The notes under the pieces: model-generated | Seen by the model: only the letters and a program-made list of their open reading frames with translations | Told to the model about the DNA's origin: nothing | Databases searched by the model: none | In this document: piece by piece, positions 8,679 to 41,390 of the stretch | Layout of the letters: every line of letters starts with the position of its first letter | How positions within the stretch are numbered: position 1 is the stretch's first letter | Program-made: the position numbers and the translations under genes | From: a virus | DNA: 64,000 bases | Direction: 5' to 3' (one strand) | Virus record (IMG/VR): IMGVR_UViG_3300050821_007659 | Span: 1-64,000 of that record

Positions 8679-9307
8679 GCCCCACCCTTCTGCCATTCAT
8701 ACCCCCGCACCCCACCCCCATACCGCGACAGATCCCTTCCCAGAATCGCAGCCAGCTCCCGCACGCCCGCGCTGATGCGCCGCTCGATCATGTCGGCCGA
8801 GAGCTTCGTGCGCGCCCGGATCTGTGTCGTGGTTTCGCCATAGACCTTGCGCAGCACCAGCACCTCGCGGACCTGCGCGGGCAATTGGTTGATGGCGGAC
8901 ACGATGCGCTCGAGGTCCTGGTGCTGTGAGATCACATCTTCAATGAGTGTCTCATCGCATGCCGCTTCGAGATTTCCCAGATCCCTGATCGATTCGTCCT
9001 TGTCTTCATTCAGGGGCTTGCGCTGTACGAGCGTGCCCAGATCCGCGGCGAGCGTGATCGGAATCACCTTCTGCCGCTGCATATGCTCGAATCCCACGTG
9101 GAAGGCGGCGCGCGCGCAGTAGCCGCGCACGTTGCGGATACCTTCCAGGCCGCGACCGAGAAAGCGCACGTACACCTCCTGCAACAACTCATCGACGTCG
9201 GCCCAGTTGCGCGTATAGCGCCACAGGACCTTGCGCAGCAGAGATTCGTGCGCGAGGGCGGCGGCGAGGAGGGTGTTGGGAGCGGCGGGGTTGAGGAGGG
9301 CGTTCAT
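8675..9307 (-). CDS. ECF-type RNA polymerase sigma factor
   Basis: 210 residues. Residues about 18-75 match sigma region 2 (LLRKVLWRYTRNWADVDELLQEVYVRFLGRG), and about 135-185 match region 4 with its helix-turn-helix (LPAQVREVLVLRKVYGETT). Regions 1.1 and 3 are absent, as in ECF sigmas. It is embedded in the phage early operon, overlapping neighbours by 4 and 22 bp, so it is a phage gene rather than host cargo added later. Targets and any anti-sigma are unknown; the small neighbours are candidates for the latter. Confidence 0.8.
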   Translation of the reverse strand: MNALLNPAAPNTLLAAALAHESLLRKVLWRYTRNWADVDELLQEVYVRFLGRGLEGIRNVRGYCARAAFHVGFEHMQRQKVIPITLAADLGTLVQRKPLNEDKDESIRDLGNLEAACDETLIEDVISQHQDLERIVSAINQLPAQVREVLVLRKVYGETTTQIRARTKLSADMIERRISAGVRELAAILGRDLSRYGGGVRGYEWQKGGA

Positions 9308-30630: not shown

Positions 30631-31744
30631 ATGTTGAATCGGTTTCGCAAACTTTTCATGCCGCTGGTGCTCGTTGCGCTCGGGCTGGTGTCGGTGATGG
30701 CTGCGCCGCCCAGTCAGGCAGCCGCTACGTCCAACTACTTCCAGAATCACATCATCGACCAGGTGTTCCGCGCGCAGACGGCACTTGCACCGGCGACGAT
30801 CTATGTGGAGCTGGCGACCTCGACTGCCACGGCACAGGCCTGCGGCACCGAGGTCAGCGGTGGAAGCTACGCACGGCAGGCGATCACGTCGAGTCTTGCC
30901 AACTGGGCGGGCACGCAAGGCGCCGGCACAACCTCGGCATCCACTAACTCGTCGGGCTCAAGTGGTACGACGAGCAACAACGCGGCCATCACCTATCCCG
31001 CACCAACAGCAAACTGGACGACAATTACCACCTTCTGCCTGATGGACGCGAGTTCGGGCGGCAACGAGCTGGTATACGCTGGATAATGCGGCGTCTCTCG
31101 CAGCAATGCGGGATGTTAGGAGTCAAATCTGGCATTGACGACTCCGAAGACAGTGTTGTTTTAATGTTCGCTGTCTCTAAATCGGCTCAAATCGGTGAAC
31201 CCCTCCCGTGAAAGCGCGGGGAATCCCGAGGGTAAGGCTCAGAGAAAGCTGAGAATCCCGTAACGACTCAGGATTGAGATTCCTGGATGGCCCAACAAAA
31301 GAGGCCATAACACGCCGACCCTGATCATGACCAAGTGAATCGAGCGTTCTGCACTCGACACGATCAGGTGAATGTATAGTCTGGCCCGCTGGAAACAGCG
31401 CGGATTTTCGGAACAACGGTGATGCTAGAAGTCAGAGATTCGCGATCTGACAGTGGCTCACTCAGCAGCAATGTTGAGATGATAACGGCGTGAATTGCTG
31501 GAAACCCTAACGTAAAGTCGAGGGCAATCAGCAAGCAAGCGTGTTAGGAATAACACGAAGCTTCAGAGACTAGGACGTACGATCCAGAACGGATTATGAG
31601 GTCCCACGAGCGCGCCGCACCCCACGAGGGTGAAGATATAGTCCGATTCTCCGTTGAAAAGCGGAGTGGCCAGATAAAGAGCTGGCCTATAACATGTTGG
31701 CACCGAGTTTTGCAGCTGGAGCCCTAACAGTCACAATTGGTTAG
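30631..31744 (+). CDS. intron-split exported phage structural/fibre-type protein
   Basis: Three exons: 30631-31080, 31403-31423 and 31700-31744, giving a 171-residue product. Exon 1 has a signal peptide (to about residue 31, ending PPSQAA) and the SNYFQNHIIDQVFR, EVSGGSYARQAITSS, NWTTITTFCLMDASSGGNEL core of a common phage tail/decoration-type family. Exon 2 encodes DFRNNGD and exon 3 APSFAAGALTVTIG-stop; joined they give the continuous family ending. Unspliced, the frame stops two codons into intron 1. Virion role inferred. Confidence 0.75.
31081..31402 (+). ncRNA. group I intron 1
   Basis: 322 nt. Splice-site T (31080) before it and G (31402) at its end. P1: exon ACGCT (31076-31080) pairs with GGCGT (31090-31094), ending in the hallmark U.G pair. 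P6-like CAGGA...TCCTG; P7 GCCGAC (31314-31319) with GTCTGGC (31379-31385); P8 CCTGATC/GATCAGG (31320-31326, 31362-31368); P9 CGCTG-GAAA-CAGCG (31387-31400). No internal ORF. Confidence 0.8.
31424..31699 (+). ncRNA. group I intron 2
   Basis: 276 nt with classic core elements: P (AATTGCTGGAAACCC, from 31493), Q (CAATCAGCAAGC), R (CAGAGACTAGG) and S (AGATATAGTCC). P4 TTGCTG/CAGCAA (31495-31500, 31529-31534), P5 CCCT/AGGG, P6 GTGTTA-GGAA-TAACAC (31541-31556), P7 GACTA/TAGTC (31568-31572, 31639-31643), P9 CTCCG/CGGAG. Preceded by T 31423, ends with G 31699. P1 is weak (TGAT with GTCA), so the 5' site could shift by a codon. Confidence 0.85.
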
Positions 31745-31834: not shown

Positions 31835-32452
31835 ATGGCTACCCATGAGACTATCACGGCGAAGATCTGTTCTCGTTGTAAACGAGATCTACCTTTGGAC
31901 CAATTCTATAAGGACGCGCGTAAGCCCAATAGAAGGGCTCATTGCAGGGATTGCTGCAACCGAGCGCGCAAAGCGGCGCGAGAAAATGCCACTCCCGAAG
32001 AGCAGAAACGCGCTCTTGAGATGGCCCGCCAGTGGAAGCTGGATAATGCGGAACGCACTGCGAAGGTAAAGCGCGCATGGGATGCTGCCAATCCAGAGAA
32101 GGCGGCCGAGTCCTCTCGAAAAGCATCCACTAAATACCGCGCCAGCAATGGTGCAGTATTTTCCGCTCGTCTTTTGCCCCATCGATTTCGACGAAGCAAG
32201 CGCAAGCGCCCGCCGAAAGCCGAATTGAAGATCGTGCCGGCGTGGGCTGATTTCGCGCAGATCGACGAAGTTTATCGGCTATGCGCAGAGCGTAATGCGT
32301 CTGACGTAGATGGTGTTGAATGGCAGGTGGACCATATAGTTCCCTTGCAATCGAGTGCCGTGTGCGGCCTCCACGTTCAAGACAATCTTTCGATCATTCC
32401 GAAACGTCAGAATATCGTCAAAGGCAACCGGCACTGGCCCGACATGCCCTAA
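31835..32452 (+). CDS. free-standing HNH endonuclease next to the introns
   Basis: 205 residues. N-terminal zinc cluster (CSRCKRDLPLDQFY, CRDCCNRARK), a basic helical middle, and a C-terminal HNH domain with QVDHIVPLQ and GLHVQDNLSIIP. Codons and AT content differ from the neighbours, suggesting separate acquisition. It may cut intronless alleles of the neighbouring gene and so spread the introns; proximity is the only evidence. Confidence 0.8.
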   Translation: MATHETITAKICSRCKRDLPLDQFYKDARKPNRRAHCRDCCNRARKAARENATPEEQKRALEMARQWKLDNAERTAKVKRAWDAANPEKAAESSRKASTKYRASNGAVFSARLLPHRFRRSKRKRPPKAELKIVPAWADFAQIDEVYRLCAERNASDVDGVEWQVDHIVPLQSSAVCGLHVQDNLSIIPKRQNIVKGNRHWPDMP

Positions 32453-35222: not shown

Positions 35223-36962
35223 ATGAGTTACGACCTGCTGCCCGCAAAGTGGTTCGACCTGGATGAGCCAGCGGCCGGTCCCGCTGCCGCCTTGGCAGGC
35301 TCGGCAAGCGCCTCTATCTCGGCAGGTGCGCCGCTCAGTACAGGTATCCCGTTGGCGGGTGTGGCGGCGAGCACAGTCAGTGCAACCGCCGCCTTAAACT
35401 CCGGTGTCCTGATGGCCGGGAGTGCCGCCGTGGGTATTGCGGCGACAGCACCCCTGAGTACCGGCATTCCGCTCTCAGGCGCCGGCGTCGTGGGCTCTAC
35501 TATCGCAGCGCCGTTGACCACGGGGATTGCGTTGGGGGGAGCGCCCACGGCCTCCTCGAGCGCCGCGGCCGATCTCAGCACACAGATTGAAGCGGCCGGC
35601 AGTGCAGTGGCGGCCGTCTCGGTCGTCGGCAGTTTCGCCAGCCGCACCTACCGGGCCGCGCGCCTCGCCGTGTCGATCCAGAAGCCGAGCTCCGATGGCT
35701 TCTTCTGGGGTCGCTATCCGCAGGGAGACAAGCCGCCGTTGTCGGGAGCTGCGGTCATTGCGAGTGCCGCCGCAGCGGGCTTGAGCACCGGCATCCGGTT
35801 GGCGATCGCGGCCTCGGCTGCCGCCAGTGCGAGCGCGAGTCTGACGACCGGGGGCGGTAGTCTATCGGCCGTCGGTAACTTCACGCTCTCCAATCAGGGT
35901 GGCTCGACCAACGGTCAGTTCCCCGTCACATCGCCACTGATGCAGATGACGATGACGTGGACTGCAGCCACTGGTCCCGTGCATCACTACCGGGCAAAAC
36001 GCGGCGTCAATGGCGGCGTCAAGACCACCTACGACGACACCATTGCAAGTAGCGCCACCTCGTGGACCGATACGGCGGCGACCAACTTCTACAATGCGAT
36101 GAACATCCAGGAGGCCTCCAGCGGCAACGTCCTGGGTCTCACCACGTGGTACGACTACGATATCGTGGCGGTGGATGCGAGTGGCAACGAAGGTCCTACG
36201 CCCGCGCAATTCACGGCTTACATCTATTACAACGGCGTCAGTTACTGCAGTAGCGAGGACCTGTCCTTCGGGATGCTTTCAGCGCCCAATTACAGCGCAA
36301 TCGATCCGCTGGGGGGTACAGCGATCAAATGCATCAAGGGCAGCGGCGGCTGCGGTCTGCAGACAGCGAGCTTCAACCCGACGTATTTCAACTTCGGGCT
36401 CGAAGTGAACATGTTCAATTATTTGAACGTGGAGATACTGCCAGGGCTCTCGGGCGAAGTCTTTGACTTGGCGCATCTAACACGCTCGCCTGTTGGAGAC
36501 GTGTTTCCGCACATCAATCTAGGGAATTTCGCCAACTCAGGCGTGTACGGTTCCGCGCCGGTCGCAGGGCAGTACGCTCTTTACAAAGTGCCGCTATCGG
36601 CGTTCGGATTTGGCGAGACCGTTTTTGATGCCACGATTGTCAGTGGCGTCATGAACGTGACTAACATTGTGTCGGGGCCGGGCATAGACCCAACCTGTTG
36701 GATTGCAACTCAAGCAGGAGGCGCGCTCACCACTCCAGGAGCAAGCCAAGGCGTTTGGGTTTCGTCTGAGCCCAGTCAAAGCGGAGTGGGCACGTATCAG
36801 GTCAGCATGGGGCCGACTGCGGGAACGAACCCGCCCGACGTCCCGACGACGACTCGCTTTGTATGTCACAAGTCCAATGCGTACAAACTGGACTTGAAGG
36901 ATTTCACGAGCGCATCGGGTACGACGTTCTATGTGCGCAAGTATTACTTCACGAGGAACTAA
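35223..36962 (+). CDS. repeat-rich surface protein with C-terminal carbohydrate-binding-like domain
   Basis: 579 residues. Residues about 20-215 hold Ala/Ser repeats of about 22 residues around LSTGIPLAGVA, interrupted by a GFFWGRYPQGDKPP module (about 160) also found in the glycosidase-like gene. Residues 220-330 resemble a fibronectin-type fold (TGPVHHYRAKRGVNG...WYDYDIVAVDASGNEGP). Residues 350-579 are similar to the next gene's C-terminal domain. Probably a modular fibre. Confidence 0.6.
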   Translation: MSYDLLPAKWFDLDEPAAGPAAALAGSASASISAGAPLSTGIPLAGVAASTVSATAALNSGVLMAGSAAVGIAATAPLSTGIPLSGAGVVGSTIAAPLTTGIALGGAPTASSSAAADLSTQIEAAGSAVAAVSVVGSFASRTYRAARLAVSIQKPSSDGFFWGRYPQGDKPPLSGAAVIASAAAAGLSTGIRLAIAASAAASASASLTTGGGSLSAVGNFTLSNQGGSTNGQFPVTSPLMQMTMTWTAATGPVHHYRAKRGVNGGVKTTYDDTIASSATSWTDTAATNFYNAMNIQEASSGNVLGLTTWYDYDIVAVDASGNEGPTPAQFTAYIYYNGVSYCSSEDLSFGMLSAPNYSAIDPLGGTAIKCIKGSGGCGLQTASFNPTYFNFGLEVNMFNYLNVEILPGLSGEVFDLAHLTRSPVGDVFPHINLGNFANSGVYGSAPVAGQYALYKVPLSAFGFGETVFDATIVSGVMNVTNIVSGPGIDPTCWIATQAGGALTTPGASQGVWVSSEPSQSGVGTYQVSMGPTAGTNPPDVPTTTRFVCHKSNAYKLDLKDFTSASGTTFYVRKYYFTRN

Positions 36963-39377: not shown

Positions 39378-41390
39378 GTGGCCATCACGCGCGTTGGCAC
39401 GGGGACGCCTCACTACGTCTTCAACGGCGCGAACACGCCGGTGTTCCCAAGCTTCAGCGCGGGGCAAACGCTGATCTATGCGACCGGCATCCCCATTGGC
39501 AGCGTGACCCTGACAACGCCCTCGGGATGGCAACTGCTATCGCCCAATAACCACGCGCAGCAGGTCGCGGTCTTCGGCCGCACGGCGACCAGCAGCAGCG
39601 ACACCATTCCCAGTGTCAACTGGGGCAACAGCGATTGGAGCTGGGCCGTGGGCATCGTGCTCAACGGCGCGCTGTCCGATATCACGCAGATCGTGGATGT
39701 GGCGGGCGATCGTGCTGCCAGTGGTGTCAGCATCATCGGGCCTTCATCGGCTCTGACACCGGCGGCCAACGGCGAATACGCGCTCTTCTGCGGGACCGTC
39801 AACGGCAGCACGGACACGTTCACAGCGCCCAGTGGCTTTACCATGGTCGCGCAATCGACCGGCAGCGCTGGGCCTTCGATGGGGATCTGTGAGCAGATCC
39901 AGACGACCGCCACGACGATCGCGGGCAACCAGGTGATGACCGGCAGCGCGACTGGCACGCCGGCAATGCAGGGCATCCTCATCCTGCTCAAGCCCGCCAG
40001 CGCAGCCGCCCTCGCGGGATCGGCGAGTGCAAGCGCGAGTGGGGCAGGTAATCTCTCGACCGGCATCCAGGCGGCCGGCAACGCGCTTCTCAGCACTGCG
40101 GCGGTCGCAGCGCTCACCAACTGGGCGACCGTGACGCTGTCGGGCACGCAGTACACCGGCCCCGGCGGCATTCACGACCCGAATTTTTGGCTGGATGTTG
40201 ATCCGCCCGTCGGCTCGGTCCTCTACTACGACGCCGCCCACATCACGATCTACGCCAATGGCGAGATCAGCTCCACGACCAACAACTGCTCGGCCGTGGT
40301 GCAGTTCTTCGACGGCACCGCCTGGTCGGTCGGTATCGTCATCATCACGCCGCAGATGGTCACCTACGCGCACGTGCTGGCCGCAGCCGCAGGCGCCCTG
40401 AGTACGGGTATCGTGCTGGCGGGAGCCGCGCTGGTCGCCTCCCAAGCGGCGGGCGGGCTGTCTACCGGCATTCAACTGGCGGGCATTGCGCTCACGGTCG
40501 CGAATGCGGCGGCCACGCTCACCACGGCCGTGCAACTGAATGCGGCGGCGCTGATCAACGTCAGTGCGAGTGGCGCCCTCACGGGGGGCGTCGCCTCGCT
40601 ACAGGGCTCAGCCCCCGTGCTCAGCCAGGCCTTGGGTGCGCTCACCACGCAGATCCAGGACGCCGGCCAGGTCTTGATCAACTCGCAGGCCACGGGCTCG
40701 TTCTCAGCGCTGATCCAGTTCCAGGGTGTGGCGAGCTCACTCACGCAGGCGAGCGGCCAACTCACCGCAGCCATCCAATTCGTCGGCAACGCCAACGTCG
40801 TGGTGACGGCCGCCGGTGCCGCCCTGATCTCGAGCGCTTTCCAGAGCGCGGCCAATGTGGTGTCGAACGCGCTCGGAGCTTTGCAGACGGGCCTGCTGAT
40901 CGCGGGCAACGCGCTCGTGCAGGTCTCGGCCGCAGGCGATCTCAGCACCGGGGTCACGCTCTCGGGCGCGGCGGTGGTGGACACGGCGGCGGCGCTCAAG
41001 CCGGTGGGGCTCGAGGGGCAGTTCGGCAAGGCCGATATCGTGGTGTTGAGCACGACGGGACTGCCCGTGGCACTCGCGACCTTCATCCAGGGCTCGCAAT
41101 GCATCGTCAGCGTCTCGTACTTCAACGCGGAAGGATTGCCATTCGTGCCGAGTGCCGTGAACTACCGCGTGGACGATGTGGCGAGCGGGGTGAATCTCGT
41201 GCCGTTTACACCGATCCCACTGCCCTCCATGGCCAATGCGATCACGATCACGGGCACACAGAATTCCATGGTCAACCTGACACGCGCTTCCGAGGAGCAT
41301 GAGATTCTTTTCCAGATCACCGATGGCGTGGGCAACGTGAGCTATCAATCGGCGGTGTATGACTTGATTCGGACGACGGGGACGAACTGA
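39378..41390 (+). CDS. large repeat-rich surface protein
   Basis: 670 residues from GTG 39378. N-terminal beta domain (1-210), then about a dozen 20-23-residue repeats of the type GALSTGIVLAGAALVASQA (210-550) broken by a beta insert (about 245-335), and a C-terminal Ig-like domain (about 555-670, FVPSAVNYRVDDVASG). Composition suggests an extended fibre. Shares repeats with the genes at 35223 and 37681. Confidence 0.6.
   Translation: MAITRVGTGTPHYVFNGANTPVFPSFSAGQTLIYATGIPIGSVTLTTPSGWQLLSPNNHAQQVAVFGRTATSSSDTIPSVNWGNSDWSWAVGIVLNGALSDITQIVDVAGDRAASGVSIIGPSSALTPAANGEYALFCGTVNGSTDTFTAPSGFTMVAQSTGSAGPSMGICEQIQTTATTIAGNQVMTGSATGTPAMQGILILLKPASAAALAGSASASASGAGNLSTGIQAAGNALLSTAAVAALTNWATVTLSGTQYTGPGGIHDPNFWLDVDPPVGSVLYYDAAHITIYANGEISSTTNNCSAVVQFFDGTAWSVGIVIITPQMVTYAHVLAAAAGALSTGIVLAGAALVASQAAGGLSTGIQLAGIALTVANAAATLTTAVQLNAAALINVSASGALTGGVASLQGSAPVLSQALGALTTQIQDAGQVLINSQATGSFSALIQFQGVASSLTQASGQLTAAIQFVGNANVVVTAAGAALISSAFQSAANVVSNALGALQTGLLIAGNALVQVSAAGDLSTGVTLSGAAVVDTAAALKPVGLEGQFGKADIVVLSTTGLPVALATFIQGSQCIVSVSYFNAEGLPFVPSAVNYRVDDVASGVNLVPFTPIPLPSMANAITITGTQNSMVNLTRASEEHEILFQITDGVGNVSYQSAVYDLIRTTGTN

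Follow-up and report, generated by a model that had tools for sequence, protein, structure and literature searches.

Three insertions of group I intron origin very probably divide a phage structural gene of the tail-fibre type into four exons, and the first of these insertions carries no catalytic core. The gene lies in a single metagenomic record of 71.9 kb (IMG/VR record IMGVR_UViG_3300050821_007659), whose positions 1 to 64,000 are called the window here, and the three insertions, of 51 nt (31081-31131), 256 nt (31155-31410, intron A) and 273 nt (31427-31699, intron B), all fall within a stretch of 84 coding letters. In the reading that we favor, to which we give, its anatomy included, a little less than an even chance, the 51-nt element is excised from the RNA by the ordinary reactions of group I splicing in a core borrowed from a neighboring intron, and introns A and B excise themselves.

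The Split Gene and Its Homologues

The split gene is a homologue of Gp80 / podophage GP4 fibre I, as the joined protein matches PF23140 with 136.5 bits (Pfam; cut-off 27). A PHROG search with the 171-aa join of the original prediction as query returned phrog_240 ("head protein"), and PDB 8jou_a was matched both by the sequence profile of this gene and by fold (Foldseek of the model of the homologue L006). L006, which serves as the reference homologue, is 79% identical over exon 1 and reads GGNELIYS-ALTTPKTV-NSGDA-APAFAAGALTITIG across the interrupted region. Relatives of the gene are encoded at 80 viral loci; those readable to their end are uninterrupted in this region, and most of them have in common the motif YxxL(T)TxKT(V/I)NNGDxAPSFAAGALT (in the alignment, YxxLTTPKTVNNGDAAPSF). 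No Rfam group I match above the gathering score was found in 14 homologous loci. The splice junctions were set by protein homology, without any RNA model, and the features are as follows.

30631-31080, + strand: exon 1, 450 nt; Gp80 / podophage GP4 fibre I homologue
31081-31131, + strand: putative coreless group I element, 51 nt; follows U31080 and ends in G31131; ends from protein homology
31119-31145, + strand: pairing between the element and exon 2, GGAGUC (31119-31124) with GACUCC (31140-31145), 6 bp; MFE and centroid folds
31132-31154, + strand: exon 2, 23 nt, GCATTGACGACTCCGAAGACAGT; ALTTPKTV with 1 nt of exon 3; residues identical in L006
31155-31410, + strand: group I intron A, 256 nt, without P2 and without ORF; ends from homology and from P1/P10
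31411-31426, + strand: exon 3, 16 nt, GAACAACGGTGATGCT; NNGDA, 1 nt completing the V codon; from the homologue alignment
31427-31699, + strand: group I intron B, 273 nt, without ORF; RF00028, 70.8 bits
31700-31744, + strand: exon 4, 45 nt with stop, starting GCACCG, APSFAAGALTVTIG; from the homologue alignment
31835-32452, + strand: HNH / endonuclease VII-like ORF, 205 aa; phrog_1035 endonuclease VII, 3e-18

In the homologue alignment exon 3 continues into GCACCGAGT at 31700. The four-exon coding sequence has 534 nt and encodes 177 residues (MLNRF...GGNELVYAALTTPKTVNNGDAAPSFAAGALTVTIG), which align without gaps with L006 up to the end of L006 itself, and the downstream exons are conserved, 24 of their 27 residues being equal to those of L006.

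Introns A and B

The core of intron B (31439-31666) matches RF00028 with 70.8 bits (E 6e-16; gathering score 50) and is 72-83% identical to introns of Enterococcus, Vibrio, Bacillus, and Pseudomonas phages. In the MFE fold its P1 is made up of 31424-31427/31454-31457 and 31418-31422/31458-31462, with the bulged U31423 between them and U31426.G31455 at the splice site; P2 (31461-31467/31472-31478) has a GCAA loop, P10 is weak, and the terminal G is G31699. We regard intron B as a complete ribozyme that should splice itself. In the Enterococcus phage Pumpjack (L086), the DNA polymerase gene has an intron whose core shares 77% identity with intron B over 124 nt; that intron holds an annotated HNH gene, whereas intron B has no ORF.

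For intron A the same family gave 23.6 bits within 31134-31402, under the gathering score of 50, with an E of 0.0012 over the 951 bases searched and of 0.083 over the whole window. Its P1 of 6 bp (31149-31154/31170-31175) pairs the exon sequence GACAGU with GCUGUC and places U31154.G31170 at the end given by homology, and its P10 of 5 bp (31165-31169/31411-31415) pairs the guide UGUUC with GAACA, the start of exon 3, again at the end given by homology. The intron has a terminal G and contains P3 (31182-31186/31314-31318), P4, P7 (31265-31268/31378-31381), P8 (31320-31326/31362-31368), and P9 (31387-31391/31396-31400). A relative in the locus L099 aligns locally with a score of 182 (chance, up to 54), and differences between the two that preserve the helices fall in P3 (U-A/C-G), P4 (U-A/A-U), and P9 (G-C/A-U). 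Since the L099 intron gave no Rfam match at E<=1, the Rfam model covers this branch of phage introns poorly. We expect intron A, too, to be a complete ribozyme that should splice itself.

The pattern GTGAATGTATAGTCTG occurs at 21 loci, among which L099 holds the one true relative, and a scan of viral and genome contigs with the pattern CCCGTAACGACTCA brought up nothing as closely related to intron A as the L099 intron. Exact patterns taken from the 51-nt element and from intron A had no match in viral contigs, and blastn of 31060-31412 against phages (E 10) returned nothing beyond chance matches of 25 nt. The L099 intron (- strand, ~8930-9250) is compact and group I-like and seems to lie close to where another phage gene (MAEILATG...SSRISIGGTALAY) starts, and a protein search made to check the joining of its exons gave no match. 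The CCCGTAACGACTCA motif is also present in apparent rRNA-gene group I introns of three other loci (L198, L168, and L205; judged by eye from the flanks), and in that of L198 P1 seems to lead directly into P3 with no P2, like in intron A.

The 51-nt Coreless Element

Judging from its sequence, the 51-nt element appears to be a group I intron cut down to its recognition parts, namely P1, the guide with P10, P2, and the terminal G. P1 (31076-31080/31090-31094) places U31080.G31090 at the splice site, and P10 (31084-31089/31132-31137) gives 6 bp to the exon 2 defined by homology. The guide UAAUGC-GGCGU pairs with exon 1 (ACGCU, P1) and with exon 2 (GCAUUG, P10), so that the 5 bp of P1 and the 6 bp of P10 make 11 contiguous pairs across the homology-defined junction (p ~0.0008, dinucleotide shuffling). 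P2 (31096-31102/31107-31113), a 7-bp hairpin with a GCAA (GNRA) loop, begins one nucleotide after P1, at the usual place of this helix. The combination of a P1 with U.G and a GNRA hairpin of at least 7 bp occurs once in 143.8 kb (both strands of the 71.9-kb genome), at 31080, its background being 8 per Mb, and with P10 and the terminal G added the full anatomy is expected at ~1 chance site per Mb. The pairing of GGAGUC with GACUCC, which alone has a p of ~0.09, coexists with P1 and P2 of the element and with P1 of intron A in both the MFE and the centroid fold; the folding energy as a whole is no more than modestly low (z -1.7).

The group I core (P3-P7 and the G-binding site) is missing from the element, which is too short at 51 nt and has no Rfam core match over it, and no third group I core was detected elsewhere in the 71.9-kb record at Rfam sensitivity. 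After a 5-nt joint following P2 the element ends in GGAGUCAAAUCUGG, a sequence similar to the P3/P4 entry of intron A and of the L099 intron, and the latter shares the 5' anatomy of the element (9-nt L1, GNRA-capped P2, and 5-nt J2/3). This comparison was made by structure, as the element and the 5' ends of intron A, intron B, and the L099 intron could not be usefully aligned with MAFFT. No sibling genome with the element was found among viral contigs. In the open-licence literature we found no coreless group I intron reported from a phage or from a protein gene.

In-frame TAA and TAG codons lie inside the element, and every product of an RNA retaining the 51 nt is a protein of 151 residues ending in NELVYAG. 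The predicted fold of L006 (mean pLDDT 62.7 overall, 82-88 in the part with the breaks) has a strand at residues 145-158 (NELIYSALTTPKTV); intron A falls at the end of this strand and the element in its middle, so that any product keeping the 51 nt stops mid-strand. The full protein of 177 residues needs exact removal of the 51 nt and, because the catalytic center has been lost from the element, something else must remove or skip them.

The original prediction had placed two closely spaced group I introns in a phage structural gene, which agrees with the Rfam matches (one strong, the other weaker and under the gathering score) and with the P1, P10, and core helices of introns A and B; its last exon (31700-31744) was likewise confirmed by the homologue alignment. 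The same alignment contradicts the boundaries of its first intron and its second exon. As drawn, the first intron (31081-31402) swallows the conserved ALTTPKTV exon, and the P1 assigned to it (ACGCU/GGCGU) belongs to the separate 51-nt element, a third interruption that had been missed and is the more unusual feature. The proposed exon of 21 nt (31403-31423) has no P10 at 31403, and the homologues give in its place the 16-nt exon 3; the product (...YA DFRNNGD APSF...) lacks eight conserved residues, gains three unrelated ones (DFR), and misses one Ala of the homologues. Although this arrangement, with its second intron at 31424-31699, leaves an open frame and has U before and G at the end of each intron, we hold it to be extremely improbable. 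The concern that the splice sites are crowded was justified and applies even more strongly to the four-exon map, in which exon nucleotides are taken up by P10 and P1: exon 2 gives 6 of its 23 nt to P10 of the element and 6 to P1 of intron A, and exon 3 gives 5 of its 16 nt to P10 of intron A and up to 9 to P1 of intron B. These pairings do not overlap, and sequential use is thus possible.

Proposed Removal of the Element

With a borrowed core, splicing would begin with the attack of GTP after U31080 while P1 of the element is docked in the core of the neighboring intron; the freed exon end, positioned by the 6-bp P10, would then attack after G31131, and introns A and B would subsequently cut themselves out. 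Because P1, the guide, and P10 are all on the excised piece, the serving core would need only to dock P1, to bind GTP, and then to bind the terminal G. Both the removal itself and the identity of the serving core, for which intron A at a distance of 23 nt is the most likely source, are inferred. We know of no natural group I core that excises a separate coreless intron, and the position of the 3' site of the element, upstream of the core of intron A, is unusual and speaks against this route. It is supported by the location of P1, P10, and P2 of the element at the junctions given by homology and by the conservation of the downstream exons. Engineered group I cores remove a separate intron in trans, both in vitro and in E. 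coli (PMC4094466).

The main rival of borrowed-core splicing is a dead remnant, that is, a full intron from which an internal deletion has recently taken the core, leaving 51 nt behind, the gene now encoding the 151-residue protein (...NELVYAG) or being non-functional. P1, P2, and P10 would persist in such a dead intron as well, and their presence is thus no proof of activity. The element indeed looks like the 5' part of a group I intron (P1, GNRA P2, 5-nt joint, and GGAGUCAAAUCUGG), one deletion would leave exactly such a piece with P1 and P10 intact, and the in-frame stops terminate all products that retain it. Decay of this kind is, on the other hand, hard to match with exons 2-4, intron A, and intron B, all of which are intact, and with the loss, on truncation, of half of a predicted beta strand and of a C-terminus kept in nearly all homologues checked; we regard it as a serious but rather doubtful explanation.

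The 51 nt might also be skipped at translation, as in T4 gene 60, by a peptidyl-tRNA-Ala moving from GCU (31078-31080) to GCA (31132-31134). The size is close to that of the T4 insert (51 vs 50 nt), a stop is near the take-off site (GGA UAA), a hairpin lies at that site, and AGGAG precedes GCA by 9 nt. Passage from GCU to GCA, however, leaves the product one residue short of the homologues, GCU is followed by the sense codon GGA instead of a stop, and a take-off at GGA has no matching in-frame GGA on which to land; since no matched codon pair yields the right product, and since P1, P10, P2, and the terminal G are accounted for by splicing and not by bypass, we consider bypass unlikely. Direct splicing from the first 5' site (31080) to 31700, the 3' site of intron B, would drop exons 2 and 3, and stays in frame because these amount to 39 nt, giving 164 residues (...NELVYAAPSFAAGALTVTIG); exon 4 also starts with GCA and offers 3 bp to the guide of the element, and there are known cases of exon skipping with group I introns of phages (PMC11878797). 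Such a product would nevertheless lack 13 conserved residues, the guide makes 6 bp with exon 2 as opposed to 3 bp with exon 4, and exons 2 and 3 fit the homologue consensus, all of which makes skipping improbable as well. Even less probable, and in our opinion very unlikely, is that the element is an autonomous minimal self-splicing ribozyme comparable to the claimed 67-nt PaSSU intron of Phialophora, with which it shares a plan of P1 with G.U, P10, an internal hairpin, and a pairing between mid-intron and 3' exon (PMC3160393): the hairpin of the element is fully paired and without the bulged P7-like G-binding site of the fungal introns, and its mid-intron pairing by itself falls short of significance (p 0.09).

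Group II introns have given rise to coreless introns that are served by a shared machine, the spliceosome. We know of no comparable coreless step for group I introns outside engineered systems and, to our knowledge, the machinery that removes the coreless group I introns in rRNA of lichens and related fungi is unknown. The coreless element of the phage gene, with an intact core at a distance of 23 nt, would lend itself to study in the test tube. If true, removal by the core of a neighbor would be the first instance in nature in which a group I intron is spliced by another one; we tentatively suggest, at distinctly less than an even chance, that the gene displays such a natural division of labor, a coreless 51-nt intron being cut from a phage mRNA by the core next to it, and that this might represent an intermediate towards bypassed inserts like that of T4 gene 60.

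Neighborhood of the Gene

The HNH / endonuclease VII-like ORF stands free directly after the split gene and is a candidate homing endonuclease. Its relatives were found at 66 viral loci, none of which (0/66) has a Gp80 gene nearby; no shared homing cassette is thus shown, and a role of this putative enzyme in moving the introns is merely possible. The N-terminus of the ORF has a weak Stc1-like zinc-binding match, below the cut-off. The segment 31769-31842, with a GC-rich hairpin just before the ORF, gave a sub-threshold Rfam match to an R1162-like plasmid antisense RNA (29.5 bits; gathering score 55), which is probably due to chance or to a terminator. Further downstream of the split gene, two long predicted proteins (35223-36962 and 39378-41390) contain many degenerate repeats of the form AG.A.....A.G.LSTGI.LAG.

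Comparison with Known Systems

Degenerate group I introns in the range of 56-81 nt are present in fungal rRNA genes; they have P1, P10, and a mid-intron segment that pairs with the 3' exon, and for one of them splicing in vitro was reported (PMC3160393). The small introns of fungal SSU rRNA include those of Arthonia lapidicola (63 nt), Porpidia (78 nt), and Phialophora (63-75 nt; PMC3160393). The 51-nt element resembles them in its size class (<~80 nt), in its P1 with G.U, its P10, and its internal hairpin, in having no standard core, and in a mid-intron/3' exon pairing comparable to their "PM," which in the element has alone a p of 0.09. It differs from them in that its hairpin is a fully paired 7-bp stem without an unpaired P7-like G-binding position, in its slightly smaller size, and in having a complete group I intron 23 nt away. 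The fungal introns, moreover, belong to nuclear rRNA and, where tested, have U as their last nucleotide, while the element resides in a phage protein gene and ends in G.

The 50 nt bypassed in T4 gene 60 have been proposed to be the relic of such an intron (PMC5009743); in the element, by comparison, P1, P2, and P10 are still readable, and there is no matched pair of take-off and landing codons that gives the right product. Tiny exons between phage group I introns, together with exon skipping, are documented in phiNIT1 rNDPL, SIOphi TerL, and Twort orf142 (PMC11878797), which are like the present gene in having two complete group I introns with a very small exon between them, but unlike it in that the gene described here is structural and has a coreless third element. 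Free-standing homing endonucleases of the Endo VII type are also known, such as F-CphI of the cyanophage S-PM2 (PMC6083498); like F-CphI, the HNH ORF matches the phage endonuclease VII family (phrog_1035) and lies beside an intron-containing gene, its activity and its target being putative. The closest functional parallel to what is proposed here is with the group I spliceozymes (PMC4094466), in which, as in our proposal, a core removes a separate intron without a core of its own; the spliceozymes are engineered and carry the guide on the ribozyme, whereas the present system is natural and carries it on the excised piece.
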